A stretch of DNA of 39,562 nucleotides from Planctomycetia bacterium. GTDB lineage: Bacteria; Planctomycetota; Planctomycetia; Pirellulales; UBA1268. The position numbers and the translations under genes are program-made. A model generated the notes under the pieces. That model saw only the letters and a list, made by a program, of their open reading frames with translations, did not search any database and was not told the DNA's origin. This document shows positions 11,801-22,578 of this stretch, one piece after another (the first letter of the stretch is position 1; every line of letters starts with the position of its first letter). The DNA lies in NCBI GenBank assembly GCA_021414115.1, contig JAIOPD010000024.1:1-39562 (forward strand). The letters run 5' to 3'.

Positions 11801-13594
11801 TCACAGGCCCGGATAGTCTTTTTCGTATCGGAAAACCCAGGCGTGGTCAATGCCCTCGTGCATCGCCACGGCCGCCGCGTAGAGGTCGGGGCCGCGGGCA
11901 CCGAACAACCCGCCGAGGATCAGATCAGCGAGGGCCTTCGGACGGGCCTCGTCCTCGAGTTCCAACAGCTTCTCCTTGCGGGCCTTGCTCTCCGCCGTCT
12001 TCGTGCTCAAACCCTCGGCGACGCGCTTCACCTCGGCAGCGTCGAGCCCCTCAAAAGCCGGCCGCAGCGCCTCGAGCGCCGCCAACGCGTCGCCCCCGCC
12101 AATCGCCGTGAGGTCGGCATCGATCGTTCGCAGCGTCGCCAACGCCCGAGCCTTCGCCACCGCGTCGTTGAGCCACTCGATCCGCCGCGATGCCACCCCA
12201 AACACATCGGCCGCCGCGCCGCGCCGCGCATCGACGTCGGGCTTCTCTTCAAGCATCCGCACGACCTTGGCAAGTGACTCGAGCGGCTTCTTGGCCACGG
12301 CCTCGGGGGTGAGACCGACCGCTTCGAGAGCCGTGCGTCGCTTTTGATCCTGGGCCGCGTCGGCCGGTCCGGCCGCCGCGGCGGCAAGCTCCTCGATCGC
12401 GACCACACCGAGATCGCCAAACACCTGCCGCAAGACCACGATGGGATCCGTGGGAGGCTTCACGCCGGCGGCCGCCCGCAGCACCACTTCGAGCGGTCTC
12501 AGGCTCGCCGCGCCGCCGCCGACGTCCGGTTCCAGAAGGTCCGACCAGCCGAGCCCGAGAGCATCGAGACCGGCAACGGGCTGCGACTTTGAATACCCCG
12601 GCCAGCCGATGGCGGAGAGCATCCGGCCACCAAGCGTCATCCGCTCGAACATTCCCGCAAAGCCGACGCTCATCTCGCGGTCACCCCCGTCACGGGCGTC
12701 GCCGGGCCGCCAGAAGTCGAGCCTCAGGCTCTCGAGAATGGCTTCGATGTCGCTCCCCGGCGGATCGTCCGACTTGACCACCGACCCGGGCTTCTGCCGC
12801 CAGCGGATTGCATTGGTCAGACCGCTGACATAGATCGAAAAAAAGTCGATTCGCGGATCGACGTCCTCCCAGATCGCCACGCCCCACCGCTCCTCGCCCG
12901 GGGCCATGTCGGAAGCGGACATCTCGGTGCTGTCGAATAACCTCCGCTGCGGATCCTCGCGACGGCGAATCGCGTCCATGGCCGAGGGCACGAGCCTGTC
13001 GAGATACCCACGATAAAACGAGCTCCCTTCGCCGTCCTCCACCGGCTCCAAGCTCTCCAGCACGAAGTGCGGCAGGAACCTCACGGGCTTTTCGAACGAC
13101 TCCGTTTCGCGGGTCGCGGGATCGGCGTCGCCCTGCTCACCCTTGCCCATCACCAGGCGGCGGCCACCGACGTTCTTCACGCGATAGAGGAGGTACCAGA
13201 TTTGCTTTCGCCGCATGCGGAGATCCGCTGCTGGCACGTCGACATCCAGCATCCGCGGCGGCTTGAACGCGAACTCGAGACACCAGATGTCTCGGGGATA
13301 TTCGCGACCTCGCGCCCGCGCCACGAACGTCGTGTTGGAGGCCGCCATCTTCGGCGTCCACTCGAGGTCGGCCTGCCCTTTTGTGATCTCCAGCAGATCA
13401 GTCCGCAGAAGGGTGTCGTCCGCGGTCCGATCGGGCGGAATGACCGTGAGCACCCCGGGCGCCAGACGGCGGAACCCCGCCGGGTCGGCGGCAGCTGCGC
13501 GGGCCGCTCCCTGCACGAGCGCGAGGCAAAGCACGGCGACAACGGCGCGACGCGGCCGTGGTCCACCCCGGAAGGATTCGCGAAAGGGCTTCAT
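11801..13594 (-). CDS. Secreted protein of unknown function
   Basis: This is a 597-aa protein I do not recognise. It starts with a clear Sec signal peptide: basic MKPFRESFRGGPRPRR, a hydrophobic VVAVLCLALVQGAARA, and likely cleavage near AAA-D. The mature part begins with a beta-rich region (about 40-330) containing APGVLTVIPP, WCLEFAFKPPRMLDVD, IWYLLYRVKN and ERWGVAIWEDVDPRIDFFSIYVSGLTN. The last third (about 400-597) is Ala/Leu/Glu-rich and probably helical. The frame stays open far upstream to 14308, but those residues are Arg/Pro-rich antiframe; the ATG before the signal peptide was chosen. It is probably periplasmic. Confidence 0.8.
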   Translation of the reverse strand: MKPFRESFRGGPRPRRAVVAVLCLALVQGAARAAAADPAGFRRLAPGVLTVIPPDRTADDTLLRTDLLEITKGQADLEWTPKMAASNTTFVARARGREYPRDIWCLEFAFKPPRMLDVDVPAADLRMRRKQIWYLLYRVKNVGGRRLVMGKGEQGDADPATRETESFEKPVRFLPHFVLESLEPVEDGEGSSFYRGYLDRLVPSAMDAIRRREDPQRRLFDSTEMSASDMAPGEERWGVAIWEDVDPRIDFFSIYVSGLTNAIRWRQKPGSVVKSDDPPGSDIEAILESLRLDFWRPGDARDGGDREMSVGFAGMFERMTLGGRMLSAIGWPGYSKSQPVAGLDALGLGWSDLLEPDVGGGAASLRPLEVVLRAAAGVKPPTDPIVVLRQVFGDLGVVAIEELAAAAAGPADAAQDQKRRTALEAVGLTPEAVAKKPLESLAKVVRMLEEKPDVDARRGAAADVFGVASRRIEWLNDAVAKARALATLRTIDADLTAIGGGDALAALEALRPAFEGLDAAEVKRVAEGLSTKTAESKARKEKLLELEDEARPKALADLILGGLFGARGPDLYAAAVAMHEGIDHAWVFRYEKDYPGL

Positions 13595-15967: not shown

Positions 15968-17083
15968 GTGGCCACGACCCGCGTCCATTTGCCCGGCAAC
16001 GCCGCGGCATCCGATCCCGCGAACGACCGCTCGTATGACATCGTTTGCGGCGGCGGGATCCTGCCGTCAATCGGCGGTCTTGTCCGCGCTGCCGGCGGCC
16101 GACGGGCGGTCGTTGTCAGCGACTCGGCCGTGGCCGCCACCCATGCCGCCCAGGTTTTGGCGGCGCTTGCAACCGCTGGCATTGATGCCTTCCTCCTCGA
16201 GGTCCCGTCGGGGGAATCTTCGAAGTCGATCGATGCCGCCGGCCGCCTCTGGAAAGAGTTCGCCCGGCAGGCCGTCGATCGGGGCACCCACGTCGTTGCG
16301 GTGGGGGGCGGCGTCGTTGGCGACCTCGCCGGGTTCGTGGCCGCCACCTTTGCCCGCGGCCTTTCCGTATGGCAGGTGCCGACCACGCTCGTGGCCCAAG
16401 TCGATAGTGCGATCGGCGGAAAAACAGGCATCAATCTCGAATCGGGCAAAAACCTCGTGGGGGTGTTTTGGCAGCCCCGCGGCGTGGTCGCCGACATCGA
16501 GACGCTCGCGACGCTCCCCTCGCGGGAGTTCATCAGTGGTCTTGCCGAGGTCGTGAAATACGGCGTGATTCTCGACCCCGCGTTCTTCGGCTGGCTCGAG
16601 GAACATGCGGGGGCCGTCCTGGCCCGGGAATCGGCCGCCCTCCTTCATGCCGTCGAGCGGTCGGCCGCCATCAAAGCCGACGTCGTCGGCCGCGATGAAC
16701 GGGAAACATCGGGACTGCGAGCCGCGCTCAACTACGGCCACACGTTTGCCCATGCCTACGAGACGGCGGCCGGCTACGGCACGCTCCTGCACGGCGAAGC
16801 GGTGGCCATCGGCATGGCACGGGCCGCCCGCCTGGCGGAACGACTGGGCCGGCTGCCCCACGACGCCGTGGCCCGACAGGACGCGCTGCTCCGACGGCTT
16901 CAGCTTCCGGTGATGCCACCCGCCGGCCTGCTCGACGCCGCGGCCCTGATCGAGATCATGGGCAGGGACAAGAAGACGCTGGGGGGCAAACTGCGGTTCG
17001 TGCTTCCCAGTCGGATCGGGCGGGTCGAGCTCGTGGACGGCGTGCCGAGCGACGTGGTCCGCGGCGTGCTGCAGCAGGCGTAG
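15968..17083 (+). CDS. aroB: 3-Dehydroquinate synthase
   Basis: This 371-aa enzyme makes 3-dehydroquinate from DAHP, the second step of the shikimate pathway, using NAD and a divalent metal. Visible motifs are the NAD-binding VAVGGGVVGDLAGFVAA, VPTTLVAQVDSAIGGKTGIN with its active-site Lys, LAEVVKYG with the metal Glu, NYGHTFAHA with a metal His, and HGEAVAIGM with the second His. The start is a GTG 2 nt after the preceding stop. The 544 bp downstream to 17628 contain no gene but several structured elements, listed separately. Confidence 0.97.
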   Translation: MATTRVHLPGNAAASDPANDRSYDIVCGGGILPSIGGLVRAAGGRRAVVVSDSAVAATHAAQVLAALATAGIDAFLLEVPSGESSKSIDAAGRLWKEFARQAVDRGTHVVAVGGGVVGDLAGFVAATFARGLSVWQVPTTLVAQVDSAIGGKTGINLESGKNLVGVFWQPRGVVADIETLATLPSREFISGLAEVVKYGVILDPAFFGWLEEHAGAVLARESAALLHAVERSAAIKADVVGRDERETSGLRAALNYGHTFAHAYETAAGYGTLLHGEAVAIGMARAARLAERLGRLPHDAVARQDALLRRLQLPVMPPAGLLDAAALIEIMGRDKKTLGGKLRFVLPSRIGRVELVDGVPSDVVRGVLQQA

Positions 17084-17121
17084 CGGCCACCGGCTTTCGG
17101 ATGAAAAGCCGCAGGTGCCTG

Positions 17122-17146
17122 GGAAGCCCGGAGCGCAAGCGACGGG
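17122..17146 (-). repeat. Dispersed repeat, copy 1 (inverted)
   Basis: The 25-bp unit GGAAGCCCGGAGCGCAAGCG plus ACGGG is a diverged inverted member of the family at 17203, 24839 and 30711. It faces the copy at 17203-17227, so the pair could fold into a long stem with a loop of about 56 nt downstream of aroB. Confidence 0.55.
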
Positions 17147-17202
17147 TATCCGGGCGGCGACCTCGACGATCGCGCGGTACCGGCCGATGTGGCGAGCGTA
17201 TT

Positions 17203-17227
17203 CCCCGCGCTCGCGCTTGGGGCTTCC
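17203..17227 (+). repeat. Dispersed repeat, copy 2
   Basis: The 25-bp core CCCCGCGCTCGCGCTTGGGG followed by CTTCC is identical to the core at 24839-24863 and has one mismatch to the inverted copy at 30711-30735. The core is itself an imperfect palindrome. It lies 3' of aroB. A second shared motif, CAATCCGGCACCGCCTCA (17254-17271), recurs at 24807-24824 with 16 of 18 matches. Confidence 0.75.
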
Positions 17228-17240
17228 TGATGAGGAAGCC
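17221..17240 (+). terminator. Hairpin downstream of aroB
   Basis: There is a perfect 7-bp stem (GGCTTCC / GGAAGCC) with a 6-nt loop, 138 nt after the aroB stop, and it overlaps the end of the dispersed repeat. No T-tract follows. It may help end or stabilise the aroB transcript. Confidence 0.4.
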
Positions 17241-17292
17241 GGCGTGACTGGGGCAATCCGGCACCGCCTCAAAAGTCGACCCGCGGGAACGG

Positions 17293-17361
17293 GGGGGTGG
17301 AGCGAATCGCTCCACCCCCTGGTCCCTAGTGACCAGGCGCTGGAGCGATTCGCTCCAGCGC
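17293..17361. promoter_or_regulatory. Tandem palindromes, possible activator sites
   Basis: Two near-identical 17-bp palindromes, TGGAGCGAATCGCTCCA (17298-17314) and TGGAGCGATTCGCTCCA (17341-17357), have centres 43 bp apart, about four helical turns. Each extends by different flanking bases into a perfect 12-13-bp stem (17293-17319 and 17337-17361). A small hairpin TGGTC/GACCA (17320-17335) lies between them. They sit about 125-185 bp upstream of the putative -24 element, the usual range for sigma-54 enhancer-binding proteins. That reading is inference; they could instead be bidirectional terminators or another dispersed palindrome. Confidence 0.55.
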
Positions 17362-17477
17362 GCCCGGGACGCCACCTTCCCGGCTGTCCCCTTCGATTTG
17401 CGATCGCGATTGAAAATAAGCCTTTTTTCAAGCGTTTTCTATCGAAATCCGTTTTTCTCGCTGCCGCTTGGGCCGAA

Positions 17478-17494
17478 TTGGCACGGCACGTGCA
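17478..17494 (+). promoter_or_regulatory. Sigma-54 (-24/-12) promoter
   Basis: TTGGCACGGCACGTGCA matches the sigma-54 consensus YTGGCACGRNNNTTGCW at every defined position except one (G for the first T of TTGC). The GG at 17480-17481 and GC at 17492-17493 are separated by the required 10 bp. Transcription would start near 17505, leaving a leader of about 120 nt before the 42-aa gene. The region just upstream (17400-17460) is clearly AT-richer than the rest of the window and includes a TTGAAAA/TTTTCAA inverted repeat (17410-17431). Confidence 0.65.
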
Positions 17495-17627
17495 TCTCTC
17501 TTCAAAGCGTGCGGGGGACCGCTGCTCAATCCTCTGATCTCGCGGATTCGCGTGGTCGAAGGGGGATGGCGGACGGTCGTTCGGCAATCGTTTTTTCGAT
17601 GTCGGCCATGTTGCAAGGAGTTCGCTC

Positions 17628-17756
17628 ATGAACCATGCCCTTCCGGTTGATTCGCCGGCCTATGCCGTCAAGGCGTGCTGGGCTCTGACGCAGGCGGACG
17701 TCCTGCTCTGTGCCCTGCCGATTGCCGTCTTCCTGTCGATCGTGTCGCTCGTTTGA
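17628..17756 (+). CDS. 42-aa membrane micropeptide
   Basis: The peptide begins MNHALPVDSPAYAVKACW and ends in a hydrophobic helix (about residues 25-42, VLLCALPIAVFLSIVSLV) that runs to the last residue. An excellent Shine-Dalgarno (AAGGAG) lies 7 nt before the ATG, the main reason for calling it real. It is the first gene behind the putative sigma-54 promoter. Codons end in T more often than in the housekeeping genes nearby. No family was recognised. It probably inserts in a membrane, either as a tail-anchored peptide or as a partner of the following genes. Confidence 0.6.
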   Translation: MNHALPVDSPAYAVKACWALTQADVLLCALPIAVFLSIVSLV

Positions 17757-17793
17757 ACGCTCCGAAGTTCGCTACCGCGGAAAGGTGGTTGCC

Positions 17794-17904
17794 GTGATCG
17801 CTCAAGCTTCTCGATCCAGCGCTCGGTCTGCTCGGATCGTTTCGTCGCTGCTTGTCAGTTGCCTGCTTGCCATGTCGGCGGTCGCCGTGGTGGTCGCTGG
17901 CTGA
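17794..17904 (+). CDS. 36-aa membrane micropeptide
   Basis: The start is a GTG preceded by AAAGGTGG, 5-6 nt upstream. The peptide has a basic N-terminus (MIAQASRSSARSAR) and one hydrophobic helix (about 15-36, IVSSLLVSCLLAMSAVAVVV) ending in AG. It follows the 42-aa gene by 37 nt. The frame is open upstream to 17710, but those residues overlap the first peptide. It could be a membrane peptide or little more than a signal sequence. The family is unknown, and the call rests on Shine-Dalgarno, composition and repetition of the same design. Confidence 0.45.
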   Translation: MIAQASRSSARSARIVSSLLVSCLLAMSAVAVVVAG

Positions 17905-17977
17905 AGTCGTTCGCCCTGTCCCCTGCCGCCCGAGGCGGCGTTCGCCCGACTCTCCTCATCTTCATCAGGTGTCCCTC

Positions 17978-18379
17978 ATGCGATTTCCTCTCTCTCGCAA
18001 GACGCGGTGGTTCAGCGCGTCGTGCGCGATCTCGTTGCTGATTTCTGTCGCTGCCGGGACAGGCGTCTCCGCTGCGGATTATCTCGCCAAAGACGATTCG
18101 GCGGGCCTTGTGGAGATGCTCGCGGCGACAACTGACATGCGGCCTGCGGACACGGCCATCGCAACGAAGCAGCCCGTTCGTCAGGTTGCGCCAGTCGCGA
18201 AGCCTGATCGGCTCAGTGCAACTTCAGCGACTGAACTCTTCTCCAACTCGAAGGCCGTCCTGCCGCTGCTCGTCAGCGACCTCGAACCATCGGTCGTTTC
18301 CATCAGTCGCCCCCTTACGGGCAGTTCGGTCGGCGCCCGTCCGTCATTGCCTTGGTCAAGGGTCTCTGCATCACGCTGA
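17978..18379 (+). CDS. Small secreted protein, unknown function
   Basis: This is a 133-aa protein with a textbook Sec signal peptide (MRFPLSRKTRWFSASC, a hydrophobic core, probable cleavage after GVSA). The mature chain of about 100 aa starts ADYLAKDDSAGLVEMLAATT. It is rich in Ser, Ala, Val and Pro with no cysteine, so it is probably flexible. The ATG at 17978 was chosen for the signal peptide and an AGGTG 7 nt upstream. No family was recognised. It is the third gene of the putative sigma-54 unit. The 87 nt to the next gene contain a small hairpin GGAAAT/ATTTCC at 18389-18405. Confidence 0.6.
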   Translation: MRFPLSRKTRWFSASCAISLLISVAAGTGVSAADYLAKDDSAGLVEMLAATTDMRPADTAIATKQPVRQVAPVAKPDRLSATSATELFSNSKAVLPLLVSDLEPSVVSISRPLTGSSVGARPSLPWSRVSASR

Positions 18380-18466
18380 TTCAGTCAAGGAAATCGTTCA
18401 TTTCCCCACCGGTTCCCCCCCGCCACGCTTTTCCTCCAAGCTCAGCAACCTCGAGGCAGTTCGATC

Positions 18467-18961
18467 ATGGACATCAACAATCAACTCACGCGTGAATCGT
18501 CGCTCCGGTCGGTCGGCATCAACGAGATCGTGATCGTCGACGGGACGTGCGACCGTTACGCCGATTTCGTGCAGGCAGCACAGGCGGGTGAGGTCGGCGT
18601 CCATTTCTGCGTCGATGGCCGTTCGGCGGTGAGACTGTCGCGACGGTTTCGTGCCGATGCTTGGCTGGTGGCTGCCGAACTCCCTGATATCTCGGGGTTC
18701 GACCTGCTCGACATGCTCTCGCCCCATGTCCTCCAGGGGGGCGTCGATCCGCTGCTTTCGGGATCGCGGATCTCACTCGATCACATCGGTCACGGAATGC
18801 GGTCGGGGATCTTCATCGTCTCCGATGCCTACCGGCTCGAAGAAGAGCAGCGGGCGCTGACGTCCGGAGTTGCTGGGTATCTCGTCCGACCGATCACGCT
18901 CGACGTGATTCGGGCGACCAGAACTCCGGCCGGCATGTCCGCGGTCACGGAAGTGTGCTGA
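18467..18961 (+). CDS. Degenerate receiver-domain protein
   Basis: This 164-aa cytoplasmic protein resembles a response-regulator receiver domain. It has beta-1 EIVIVDG (one pocket Asp, D25), LPDISGFDLLDML around beta-3/alpha-3, FIVSD for beta-4 with Ser119, and GVAGYLVRP for beta-5. Two key positions are lost: the phosphorylated Asp is Ala69 (four residues before Pro73), and the conserved Lys before Pro is Arg141. There are also roughly 25-30 extra residues (about 85-112) between alpha-3 and beta-4. It has no output domain. It probably acts as a phosphorylation-independent protein-binding module. GAGG lies 10 nt before the ATG. Confidence 0.65.
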   Translation: MDINNQLTRESSLRSVGINEIVIVDGTCDRYADFVQAAQAGEVGVHFCVDGRSAVRLSRRFRADAWLVAAELPDISGFDLLDMLSPHVLQGGVDPLLSGSRISLDHIGHGMRSGIFIVSDAYRLEEEQRALTSGVAGYLVRPITLDVIRATRTPAGMSAVTEVC

Positions 18962-19047
18962 GCCTGCCCGTCGATCCACATCCGACGTCCTCGCTGTGTC
19001 GACGCGGCCACCAGAAGAACGCTCTCGTCCGGCCCAGGATGGACACC

Positions 19048-19353
19048 ATGCGCTTTCTGACGTCCTGCGCTGCGGCGACGGTGGTGTTCATCGTTGGTGG
19101 CCACGGTCCTACGGCCCTGGCACAGAACGATTGGCAGTATCCCGACCCTTATTTCGGGATCATCGAAATCGAGAAATCGCATCCTTCGCCAGCCGCTGAG
19201 CGGCGGTATCGAGCCGAAGTGTCACCTCCGCCAAAGAACCGACCTTCTGCTCGCCACCGCCAGCGACTGCTGCGGCCCCGCCCGCGGTCCGTCGCCGGCG
19301 ATCGAGAGTTGCAACCGCCTCGTCCATCTGCGACTCGGCCGCCTGCACAGTGA
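19048..19353 (+). CDS. Small secreted Arg/Pro-rich protein
   Basis: This is a 101-aa protein with a signal peptide (MRFLTSCAAATVVFIVGG, cleavage near ALA-Q) and an aromatic N-terminal mature motif QNDWQYPDPYFGIIEIEKS. A basic, Pro-rich tail follows (RHRQRLLRPRPRS...). The ATG at 19048 is favoured over 19039 because AGGATGG lies at the proper distance. The tail is low in complexity, and a frameshift there cannot be excluded. The family is unknown. It lies between the receiver-like gene and the protease gene, 30 nt before the latter. Confidence 0.5.
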   Translation: MRFLTSCAAATVVFIVGGHGPTALAQNDWQYPDPYFGIIEIEKSHPSPAAERRYRAEVSPPPKNRPSARHRQRLLRPRPRSVAGDRELQPPRPSATRPPAQ

Positions 19354-19383
19354 TGATGAGAAGATCGTGGTGACGGGGTGGCC

Positions 19384-21261
19384 ATGAGCACACCGGGGTG
19401 GGACTCGCGGGAACGGCGCTTCTCCCCGAAGCGTTGCTGTCCCGTTCAACGCCGACTCTTTTCGCTGCTGCTCGTCGCAGTGGTTGCCGTCGGCCTGCCC
19501 GCACCTCGGGCGCATGCCATCGTCAGCAGCAACACGGGCTGGGATCCGCCGTTCACCGGCACCGTGATCAACTATCAGGTCGGGGCCGGCACGTTCTACA
19601 ACCTTGGGTTTCTCGGCAGCCGGGCGACCGTCGCCAACATCGAAGCCGGGGCGATCTGGAACGGCCACGAAACGCTCGCCGGCCGGGTGAGCGAGTTCAT
19701 CGCCGATCCGGCCATTGTCGCCACCGGGACGACGCAACTCGGCCAGTTTGATTGGCACGCCACGATGGTCGGCCAGACGATCGGCGGAGCCGGCGGCTAT
19801 GCCGTCTATCAGGTAGGCATCGCCCCCGCGGCTCAGCTCTGGTCGGGGTCGATCGCCACCGAGTGGATTCCCAACCCGTCCGGGGATTACAGCGGCTCGT
19901 TCGCAATCACCAACGAGAGTTTTCTCTACCCCTACGTCACCGCCATGCGGAACGGCGCCACGTCGGGCACCACGCTGCGGACCAAGATCGTCAACAGCAG
20001 CTGGGGCTACGACGATTCCCCCGGCCAATATGCAGAAACCATCGCGATCGACGCGCTGACGTTGCAGGGCAACGTCGTCACGGTCATCGCGGCCGGGAAT
20101 TCCGGCACCGCGCCCAACACGGTCAGCGGCCCCGCGACGGGCTACAACGGCATCACCGTCGCCGCCCTCACCGGCGACCAGACCACGCCCGTCTATTCCC
20201 AGGTGGCGGACTTCTCGAGCCGTGGCCCGAGCGATTTCTACAACCCGGCCTCGGGCACCACGGTGGCCAATGTCCGGCCCACGGTCGATATCGCCGCGCC
20301 GGGCGACAACCTCACGCTCGCCTTCTACGGCGGCCTGACGGGCGGTCATACCTCGGGCACTGCCGTCAGTGGCACCAGTTTCTACTACCCCAACACGGAC
20401 GGCACGAGCTTCGCCGCGCCCATCGTGGCCGGCGGCGCGGCCTTGATGGTGGATGCCGGCACGCTGTTCGTCGACGGTGGTGTCGCCAGCAGCGAGATGC
20501 TCGACGCCCGCGTGATCAAGGCGACCATGCTGGCCGCAGCCCAAGCACCCACGGGCTGGAACAACGGCCAGTCGATCGTGGGAGGCGTTGTCACGACGAC
20601 CCAGGCGCTCGACTACGCAACGGGGGCCGGGATTCTCGATCTCGACGCGGCTTATCGCGGCTACGTGGGGGATCCCTCCGCGGTCACGATCGGGGGCATC
20701 ACGTACATCACGGCCGGCATCAACACGACGCTCGGCGTGTCGGGATCGGCGGGCGGCAGCGGGCTCGAGCACCGGGGCTGGGATCTCGGCAGCGTGCTGA
20801 GCAGTTCGACCGCCGGTTCGGGCAACGCCAACGTCTACTCAATGGCCGCGCCCTTCGCCGCCGGCGACACCCTGACCGCCGCGCTCACCTGGTTCGCCGA
20901 CCGCACGCTCGAGAGCACTCTAGAGTCCGCCGTCGACGTGGCTCTGAGCAACCTCGCCCTCGAGGTCTGGCGCAGCGGAACTGGCGGCGATTCGCTGGTG
21001 GCCCGGTCCAACGCGACCTACAGCAGCACCGAGTTTCTGAGATTCGCCGTGCCGCAGGCGGGCACCTACAGCATGCGGGTGGTGGGGCTCGACCAGATTT
21101 ACAACCTCGCCCCCACGCCCGACACCCGCACGGACTACGGGCTGGCATGGCAGACGATCCCCGTGCCGGAACCGGCGTCACTGGCCCTCGCGGGCACCGC
21201 CCTCGTGGCGGTGGCCATCCGCTGGCGGACGAGAAAACGATACCACGACAACACGTCGTGA
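19384..21261 (+). CDS. Subtilase-like protease with PEP-CTERM anchor
   Basis: This is a 625-aa secreted S8-like protein. Counting from the alternative GTG at 19378, it has a signal peptide (about 25-47, ending RAHA), then VANIEAG, where E89 takes the place of the usual catalytic Asp. HATMVG carries H127, AAGNSG the oxyanion N241, and DGTSFAAP the nucleophile S344. A beta-rich C-terminal domain of about 200 aa follows. It ends in a PEP-CTERM signal: VPEPAS, a hydrophobic helix and WRTRKR. It is probably exported and processed by an exosortase-type system not in this window. It converges with the PAP2 gene, 15 bp away. Confidence 0.88.
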   Translation: MSTPGWDSRERRFSPKRCCPVQRRLFSLLLVAVVAVGLPAPRAHAIVSSNTGWDPPFTGTVINYQVGAGTFYNLGFLGSRATVANIEAGAIWNGHETLAGRVSEFIADPAIVATGTTQLGQFDWHATMVGQTIGGAGGYAVYQVGIAPAAQLWSGSIATEWIPNPSGDYSGSFAITNESFLYPYVTAMRNGATSGTTLRTKIVNSSWGYDDSPGQYAETIAIDALTLQGNVVTVIAAGNSGTAPNTVSGPATGYNGITVAALTGDQTTPVYSQVADFSSRGPSDFYNPASGTTVANVRPTVDIAAPGDNLTLAFYGGLTGGHTSGTAVSGTSFYYPNTDGTSFAAPIVAGGAALMVDAGTLFVDGGVASSEMLDARVIKATMLAAAQAPTGWNNGQSIVGGVVTTTQALDYATGAGILDLDAAYRGYVGDPSAVTIGGITYITAGINTTLGVSGSAGGSGLEHRGWDLGSVLSSSTAGSGNANVYSMAAPFAAGDTLTAALTWFADRTLESTLESAVDVALSNLALEVWRSGTGGDSLVARSNATYSSTEFLRFAVPQAGTYSMRVVGLDQIYNLAPTPDTRTDYGLAWQTIPVPEPASLALAGTALVAVAIRWRTRKRYHDNTS

Positions 21262-21276
21262 TGGCCCGTCGCCGGG

Positions 21277-22578
21277 TTACCAGCGGCCCTCCACGGCCAG
21301 CCCACCCATGTCGGCTGTCGGCATGGGCACGACGCGAACCTCCATTCCGGCGAAGTGCATCTCCGTCATGCTCACCGCCCGCGAACTCGCCCAGGCCAGA
21401 TACCAGCCGAGAAACACCTGCGACGGATAGTGGGCGTTGTCGGTCATCCGGGAGAAGCCGACGAAGGTCGAGCAGACGTAGAGCGTTCCTTTGAGCAGCG
21501 GGCTCTCCACCATGTCGGCCGCGGCAAGAAAGGGAAGCGCGCCCACGAACGCATGGCCGCTCACGCCGTTGTTGTCGTTGAAAAAGTGCCACTGGCTGCC
21601 GACACCATCGGACGGTCTCGAGGCCCCGGTCGCGAGCTGCAGCACGTAGAGCGGTGGCGCGCCCACGACGAACATCCGCAGCGAACGCGAACCCCATTCG
21701 CCCACGACGTCGCCCACGGGATTGCCCTCGAACACGAGGCCGGTCGCCGCCGACGCGCCGAAGACAGCAAGGGCATACCGCCCCTCGCCGATGTCCTTGC
21801 AGCCCGAGAAAAATGTGCCCACACCCGTCGGCTCCACACCCCGCTGCCAGGCTCCCTGCATCGTGTCGTCGAAGCCGGTGTTGGCCATCAGCGCGCCAGC
21901 GCCAAACGCGGCGGTCACGCAGACGAGACTGTCGCAGGAGTAGAAGTTGCGGTAGTCCTCGAGCACCTTGTAACCCGCCCGGGTCGTGCGGGGAAAACGA
22001 CTCCGTGACCACGGCAGCTCCGGAGGGGGCGGCGCCAGCAGCTCCTCACGGTCGAGCGGCGGCAGCGCGTAGATGGGCTCGGCTGCGGGCGACATCTGGG
22101 CGGCCAACTGGACGGTGACGCTCTCGGCATCGGGCTCTGTCTGCCACTGCCCGACCAGTTCGATCCCCTGCCCTCCGGCCGCCGAGCCGGAGAGTGTCTG
22201 CGTCTCCACGGCCGCTGCGATCCACGCTCCGGTGGCGGCGGGCACCACGGTCACGACCACCCGCTGGCGACGGGGCGGCCATGACTCGAGCAGGGATCCG
22301 GGCGGCTCGACCCACGCCGACTCGATCCGACCCTCGCGGGGCGGCATGGCAAGGAAGTCGGGCTCCACGGTCCGCGTTACCGGCCACTCGGCCGACACCG
22401 TGGCAAGCGTTCGCCGCCAGAGCTGCATGCCGTCGGCTGCCGGCAGGAACATGCCGGTGGCCTCCTCGGCGCGCAGCGTCCCCGGGGCGAACAACGTCAG
22501 CACGGCGGCCGTCCACAAACGGCCCTGGCTGCGGGTTCGCCTCACCGGCACGGACGTGCGATCGAGGGAAGGATTCAT
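21277..22578 (-). CDS. PAP2-superfamily-like protein, altered motifs
   Basis: This 433-aa exported protein has a signal-like N-terminus (hydrophobic LWTAAVLTLFAPGTLRA). An N-terminal half of unknown fold precedes a C-terminal region with PAP2 phosphatase motifs: SRP (320-322), VSGHAF with H342, and SRMTDNAH with R377 and H383. The acid normally four residues after the last His is Gln387, and the Lys of the first motif is Gln314. Several hydrophobic helices flank these. It may be a lipid phosphatase or a non-catalytic relative. An alternative start lies at 22617. Confidence 0.7.
   Translation of the reverse strand: MNPSLDRTSVPVRRTRSQGRLWTAAVLTLFAPGTLRAEEATGMFLPAADGMQLWRRTLATVSAEWPVTRTVEPDFLAMPPREGRIESAWVEPPGSLLESWPPRRQRVVVTVVPAATGAWIAAAVETQTLSGSAAGGQGIELVGQWQTEPDAESVTVQLAAQMSPAAEPIYALPPLDREELLAPPPPELPWSRSRFPRTTRAGYKVLEDYRNFYSCDSLVCVTAAFGAGALMANTGFDDTMQGAWQRGVEPTGVGTFFSGCKDIGEGRYALAVFGASAATGLVFEGNPVGDVVGEWGSRSLRMFVVGAPPLYVLQLATGASRPSDGVGSQWHFFNDNNGVSGHAFVGALPFLAAADMVESPLLKGTLYVCSTFVGFSRMTDNAHYPSQVFLGWYLAWASSRAVSMTEMHFAGMEVRVVPMPTADMGGLAVEGRW

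Follow-up and report, generated by a model that had tools for sequence, protein, structure and literature searches.

Two adjacent micropeptide genes in a planctomycete genome

Do two very short open reading frames lying one after the other on a planctomycete contig represent genuine genes, and what could their products do? The window analyzed here is the whole stretch of 39,562 nucleotides, a contig from a 4.35-Mb planctomycete metagenome-assembled genome. The two reading frames are:

17628..17756, plus strand: p1, a predicted tail-anchored micropeptide of 42 aa, from ATG at 17628 to TGA at 17756, MNHALPVDSPAYAVKACWALTQADVLLCALPIAVFLSIVSLV
17794..17904, plus strand: p2, a micropeptide of 36 aa, GTG start at 17794, TGA stop at 17904, MIAQASRSSARSARIVSSLLVSCLLAMSAVAVVVAG

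The coordinates, lengths, strand and Shine-Dalgarno sequence given in an earlier note on this DNA were all correct. The note also described a hydrophobic helix running to the C-terminus of each peptide, and both do end in a hydrophobic stretch, with a best 19-residue Kyte-Doolittle mean of 2.47 for p1 and 2.49 for p2. The sequence CAAGGAGTTCGCTC is found directly 5' of the p1 ATG, with the Shine-Dalgarno CAAGGAG; at 17614-17627, the spacer between this element and the start (CGCTC-ATG) is also largely conserved across species, beyond the needs of a plain ribosome site. The ribosome-binding site of p2, GGAAAGGTGGTTGCC, is weaker than that of p1, and an alternative in-frame GTG start is located further upstream, in the 17785 region (GTGGTTGCC-GTG). 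Within the whole window, p1 and p2 were the only readings of 30-60 aa with a hydrophobic, charge-free 18-residue tail, and no such reading was obtained in 60 first-order Markov shuffles of the window. A tRNA-Ser was also called by ARAGORN at 13247-13331 (minus strand); it lies within a long ORF and is probably a false positive.

Related loci were obtained via the neighbouring receiver-like gene, and the same peptide p1 was present there; public records label the close loci as Pirellulales and other Planctomycetota. In a profile search, p1 was detected in 36 of the 72 genomes of the family to which the window belongs, covering 7 of its 12 genera. The 391 other planctomycetes sampled yielded no copy, with 19 candidates scored per genome in this wider search, a depth at which distant copies could escape. 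The C-terminus of p1 is fixed as LTxxDxxxCxxPIxxFLSIVSLV-stop, the stop position is the same in nearly all copies, and residues L20, T21, D24, C28, P31 and F35 are invariant among 38 aligned sequences. Over the last 24 codons of 45 copies, pN/pS was 0.40 in the p1 frame versus 1.00 and 2.47 in the shifted frames. Over the same codons, comparison of the window with its closest relative, locus L063, gave a dS of 0.41 and a dN of 0.02 (dN/dS about 0.05). DNA identity between these two loci reached 88% for p1 and 82%, ungapped, for p2, versus 46-68% for the surrounding gaps. On these comparative grounds, p1 is a genuine gene under selection at the protein level. Frame-breaking indels in close relatives, proposed earlier as an observation that would speak against the genes, were looked for and not found. 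The view that these are real genes easily missed by annotation is strongly supported by frame selection, the conserved stop, the Shine-Dalgarno sequence and the sigma-54 promoter described below.

AlphaFold2 predicted p1 as one helix spanning residues 10-41, with a mean pLDDT of 92-97 across residues 21-42. Because this single long helix ends at the C-terminus, p1 is probably tail-anchored, and its few basic residues suggest an N-in topology. Profile scans assigned neither p1 nor p2 to a relevant Pfam or NCBIfam family, and the p1 profile had no match among PDB sequences. In the window, aroB lies 5' of p1 (15968-17083), and p1 is directly downstream of aroB in most of the 15 loci where aroB was found.

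The constraint on p2 is weaker. At nine loci of the same genus, we found a peptide of 30-37 aa with a hydrophobic end and a Gly-stop at the matching place, 37-94 nt after p1 and free of indels in its aligned part. Its pN/pS was 0.70, versus 1.01 and 1.37 in the other frames. As judged from these alignments, p2 is a real, loosely constrained and genus-restricted peptide. The two peptides had first been presented as a pair, which applies to the one genus where they are adjacent; p1 is widespread, and most p1 loci lack p2. Another observation concerns the pREC-B protein described below: the final 12-15 residues of p2 fit its membrane tail better than 99% of position shuffles, a suggestive likeness to which the shared final Gly contributes. 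A corresponding likeness of the p1 tail to the tail of pREC-B or p2 was ruled out, since 28-42% and 70-92% of shuffles, respectively, were equally good. At locus L071, a secreted protein carries a p2-like N-terminus.

p1 belongs to a sigma-54-driven operon

Analysis of the gene environment showed that p1 and p2 are followed by genes for exported proteins and a receiver-like protein, downstream from a putative sigma-54 site:

17479..17494, plus strand: sigma-54 (-24/-12) promoter, TGGCACGGCACGTGCA
17978..18379, plus strand: 133-aa secreted protein with a signal peptide; homologous stretches occur in 10 other p1 loci, on the same strand
18467..18961, plus strand: pREC-A, a 164-aa receiver-fold protein with the phospho-acceptor Asp replaced by Ala and the conserved Lys by Arg
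19039..19353, plus strand: 104-aa secreted protein with the WQYPDPYFGIIE motif, present in 11 other p1 loci
19384..21261, plus strand: exported subtilase-type protease with the PEP-CTERM sorting tail VPEPASLALAGTALVAVAIRWRTRKR

The order is thus sigma-54 site, p1, p2, secreted protein, pREC-A, WQYP secreted protein and PEP-CTERM subtilase. The 133-aa protein had no Pfam match. The protease matched Peptidase_S8 (E 4.8e-21) and PEP-CTERM (E 3.5e-5), its longest ORF begins at 19378, and it is kept downstream in 11 p1 loci, the window included. At L071:5400-6620 the order differs, with the secreted protein, pREC-A and pREC-B preceding p1, and then the subtilase.

We searched for the element TGGCAY-N6-TGCW within 650 nt upstream of the p1 copies linked to a pREC gene. 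It was found for 39 of 44 copies, versus none of the 44 on the reverse complement and none of the 44 with the upstream sequence reversed. No sigma-70-type site was detected in the 16900-21800 region. At the level of predicted elements, the sigma-54 promoter and the membership of p1 in the operon are established. In the genome carrying the window, 4 of the 10 strict sigma-54 sites have a PEP-CTERM gene downstream in the same orientation (contigs C19, C32, C108 and C113). Further strict sites are located ahead of dnaK-like, Hsp20-like and PII-like (glnB/glnK) genes (L001, G000:C10:44050; L003, C27:9492; L005, C34:34851). Since such sites precede dnaK-like and Hsp20-like genes, heat-shock chaperones may be under sigma-54 control in this organism.

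p1 co-occurs with phosphorylation-dead receivers

The pREC-A protein contains the motif DAWLVAAELPDISG and matches Pfam Response_reg with an E of 1.2e-4, below the cut-off. Its AlphaFold model (pLDDT 82.9) matched receiver domains in Foldseek with an E of about 1e-7. The receiver fold is therefore present, and the phospho-acceptor Asp of an active response regulator is absent. Two kinds of pseudo-receiver were distinguished, often encoded in tandem: pREC-A, which is soluble, and pREC-B, which has a C-terminal membrane tail, e.g., LPVSVGAAVVAIAVLMIG. In the aligned sequences of both, the phospho-acceptor Asp is replaced by Ala or Ser. Known pseudo-receiver domains likewise combine a receiver fold with the loss of this Asp; the pREC proteins differ from them in being stand-alone, in forming tandem pairs of which one member can be membrane-tailed, and in being linked to a micropeptide and to PEP-CTERM cargo.

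A pREC gene was found within 3 kb and on the same strand for 44 of 59 p1 copies, with p1 ahead of one or two pREC genes in 43 of these 44. Among the 72 genomes of the family, 34 carry both genes, 35 neither, two only p1 and one only pREC (Fisher 1e-16), versus a Fisher value of 0.009 for p1 and exosortase in the same test; the p1-pREC value is inflated because the genes adjoin and one missing contig removes both, and genome kinship also inflates these values, but this does not remove the difference between pREC and exosortase. The two p1-only genomes carry divergent copies, and in the pREC-only genome the contig starts inside pREC. The genome carrying the window has a second p1-pREC-B copy, on contig C50, where a sigma-54-like promoter and a small PEP-CTERM gene are also present. 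It also contains a third pREC-type gene with a sigma-54 site ahead and no p1 (G000:C19:44548-47860; L002, L061), followed by a gene for a large PEP-CTERM protein, with a histidine kinase and a response regulator divergent beside it.

PEP-CTERM proteins are encoded near p1

A single exosortase and about 35 PEP-CTERM proteins are encoded in the genome carrying the window, and p1 is not one of the latter. PEP-CTERM genes were located near 29 of the 59 p1 copies, always on the same strand and never on the opposite one, and many of the remaining copies are on short contigs. In three p1-positive genomes, no match to the exosortase family PF09721 was obtained. PEP-CTERM proteins adjoin p1 at L074, L075 and L162, in genomes without such a match (G035, G071), which possibly have a divergent sortase or missing contigs.

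In Proteobacteria, PEP-CTERM genes are known to be controlled by sigma-54, paired with PrsK and PrsR, according to the portions of two accounts considered here (Haft 2006, PMC1569441; Xia 2023, PMC9850573). In those of Haft 2006, the shared sigma-54 site is a feature of Proteobacteria, and neither PrsR nor PrsK is listed for the planctomycete Rhodopirellula baltica (PMC1569441). The genome carrying the window resembles this regulon in its exosortase, its many PEP-CTERM proteins and the -24/-12 sites upstream of PEP-CTERM transcription units. It differs in that it has no PrsR or PrsK above the curated cut-offs, the best scores being 371 of 502.6 bits and 101 of 300 bits, respectively. The same portions of these accounts mention neither a p1-like peptide nor a pseudo-receiver (PMC1569441; PMC9850573).

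A putative membrane partner of pseudo-receivers

What could be the function of p1? The reading we favor, tentatively and at somewhat less than an even chance, is that p1 is anchored in the inner membrane by its C-terminal tail and acts there as a partner of pseudo-receivers, in surface-protein operons driven by sigma-54. The earlier note had suggested a membrane partner of a neighbour; near-perfect co-occurrence and adjacency single out the pseudo-receiver genes as putative partners, and the suggestion holds for p1 in this form. The genomic data show the association between p1 and pREC; their physical contact, the topology of p1 and the link to sorting are what we infer. In the favored model, the sigma-54 promoter would drive the expression of p1, of the phosphorylation-dead pREC-A and of the exported PEP-CTERM proteins, and in most species of pREC-B as well. 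p1 would insert in the inner membrane with its short N-terminus in the cytoplasm, and its conserved LTxxD cap and C..P face would provide the binding surface for the pseudo-receiver(s), or for a membrane protein on which they act. It could in this way recruit or stabilize a pseudo-receiver at the membrane during the production of PEP-CTERM cargo and its sorting by exosortase. p2 would be a second tail-anchored peptide of the operon, and possibly an auxiliary anchor or a competitor, given the likeness of its tail to that of pREC-B. Counting against the favored reading, pREC-B is already membrane-tailed, the pREC gene on contig C19 has no p1 ahead, and three p1-positive genomes gave no PF09721 exosortase match.

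In a more specific and rather unlikely version, p1 and the two kinds of phosphorylation-dead receiver would make up a dedicated membrane checkpoint, through which the sigma-54-driven production of surface proteins is tied to their sorting by exosortase and in which p1 is the membrane sensor or anchor. As far as we searched, no earlier description of such a checkpoint was found in the literature.

The strongest competitor, although we give it only about half the weight of the favored reading, is that p1 acts on PEP-CTERM cargo or exosortase, as a small sorting chaperone or substrate-specific adaptor, while the pseudo-receivers form a separate regulatory layer. In genera g11 and g7, p1-like peptides directly adjoin PEP-CTERM genes with no pREC beside them, which could make the cargo or exosortase the strict partner. 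The strand bias of the nearby PEP-CTERM genes points the same way, as does the C50-type operon, in which p1 comes right after a small PEP-CTERM gene. However, 23 genomes of the family have an exosortase and no p1, p1 tracks pREC far more tightly than exosortase, and for about half of the p1 copies no PEP-CTERM tail was detected in the available stretch, partly as contigs end. At a further locus, L154, in a genome that lacks pREC, two divergent p1-like peptides are encoded, each ahead of PEP-CTERM genes.

Small membrane proteins such as MgrB, SafA, CydX and KdpF, of less than about 65 aa and with one helix, are made together with a larger membrane system or act on it. p1 resembles them in its small size and single helix; it differs in that its helix ends exactly at the C-terminus and its putative partners are phospho-dead receivers, and Pfam, NCBIfam and PDB sequence searches found no sequence relation to them. 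By analogy with MgrB and SafA acting on PhoQ, p1 could exert feedback on the membrane histidine kinase by which the sigma-54 activator is switched on. A sigma-54-driven single-pass peptide made together with two receiver-like proteins would suit such a role, many sigma-54 activators and histidine kinases are encoded in the genome carrying the window, and a histidine kinase and response regulator lie beside the C19 operon. We nevertheless consider it improbable: no dedicated kinase or activator gene adjoins the p1 loci examined, PrsK and PrsR fall below their cut-offs, and p1 lacks an MgrB-type periplasmic domain.

It is very improbable that p1 serves as a regulatory leader or arrest peptide, controlling downstream genes through its translation with no functional protein being made. 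In most loci p1 is the ORF nearest the promoter, and it is conserved right to its stop codon, as such a peptide could be. But this role is made unlikely by the variable position of p1, which follows both pREC genes at L071 and a PEP-CTERM gene in the C50-type operon, and by the lack of conserved RNA structure within 100 nt on either side of p1 in two groups (RNAalifold energy 0.0 in all four sets). The distance from p1 to the next gene also varies widely, and its conserved residues form a predicted transmembrane helix.

Only size and the single hydrophobic helix recall type I toxins, and the toxin-like activity proposed earlier appears highly unlikely in view of the fixed chromosomal operon with its conserved partners and sigma-54 promoter, the position downstream from aroB, the invariant polar, Cys and Pro residues in or at the helix, and the absence from the window of any Rfam family at gathering score, the antitoxin search being confined to Rfam. 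High-GC DNA does contain many spurious ORFs, which swamped a clustering of all ORFs across loci and led to directed searches being used instead, but an origin of both frames by chance has a negligible probability given the selection, homologues, Shine-Dalgarno, promoter conservation and shuffles, which already contradict it for p1, the case for p2 resting on nine loci.

Significance

Small regulatory membrane proteins as such are already known, but the p1 family and its setting appear to be new; our literature search on small proteins associated with PEP-CTERM or exosortase in planctomycetes found no description of such peptides. Small proteins have hardly been explored in planctomycetes, and p1 represents a micropeptide family that is strongly marked at the genetic level, by its promoter, partners and conserved residues. 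The link between sigma-54 and PEP-CTERM is extended to a planctomycete lineage, with candidate new components, and these provide concrete genes for asking how signalling couples to the production of exosortase cargo.
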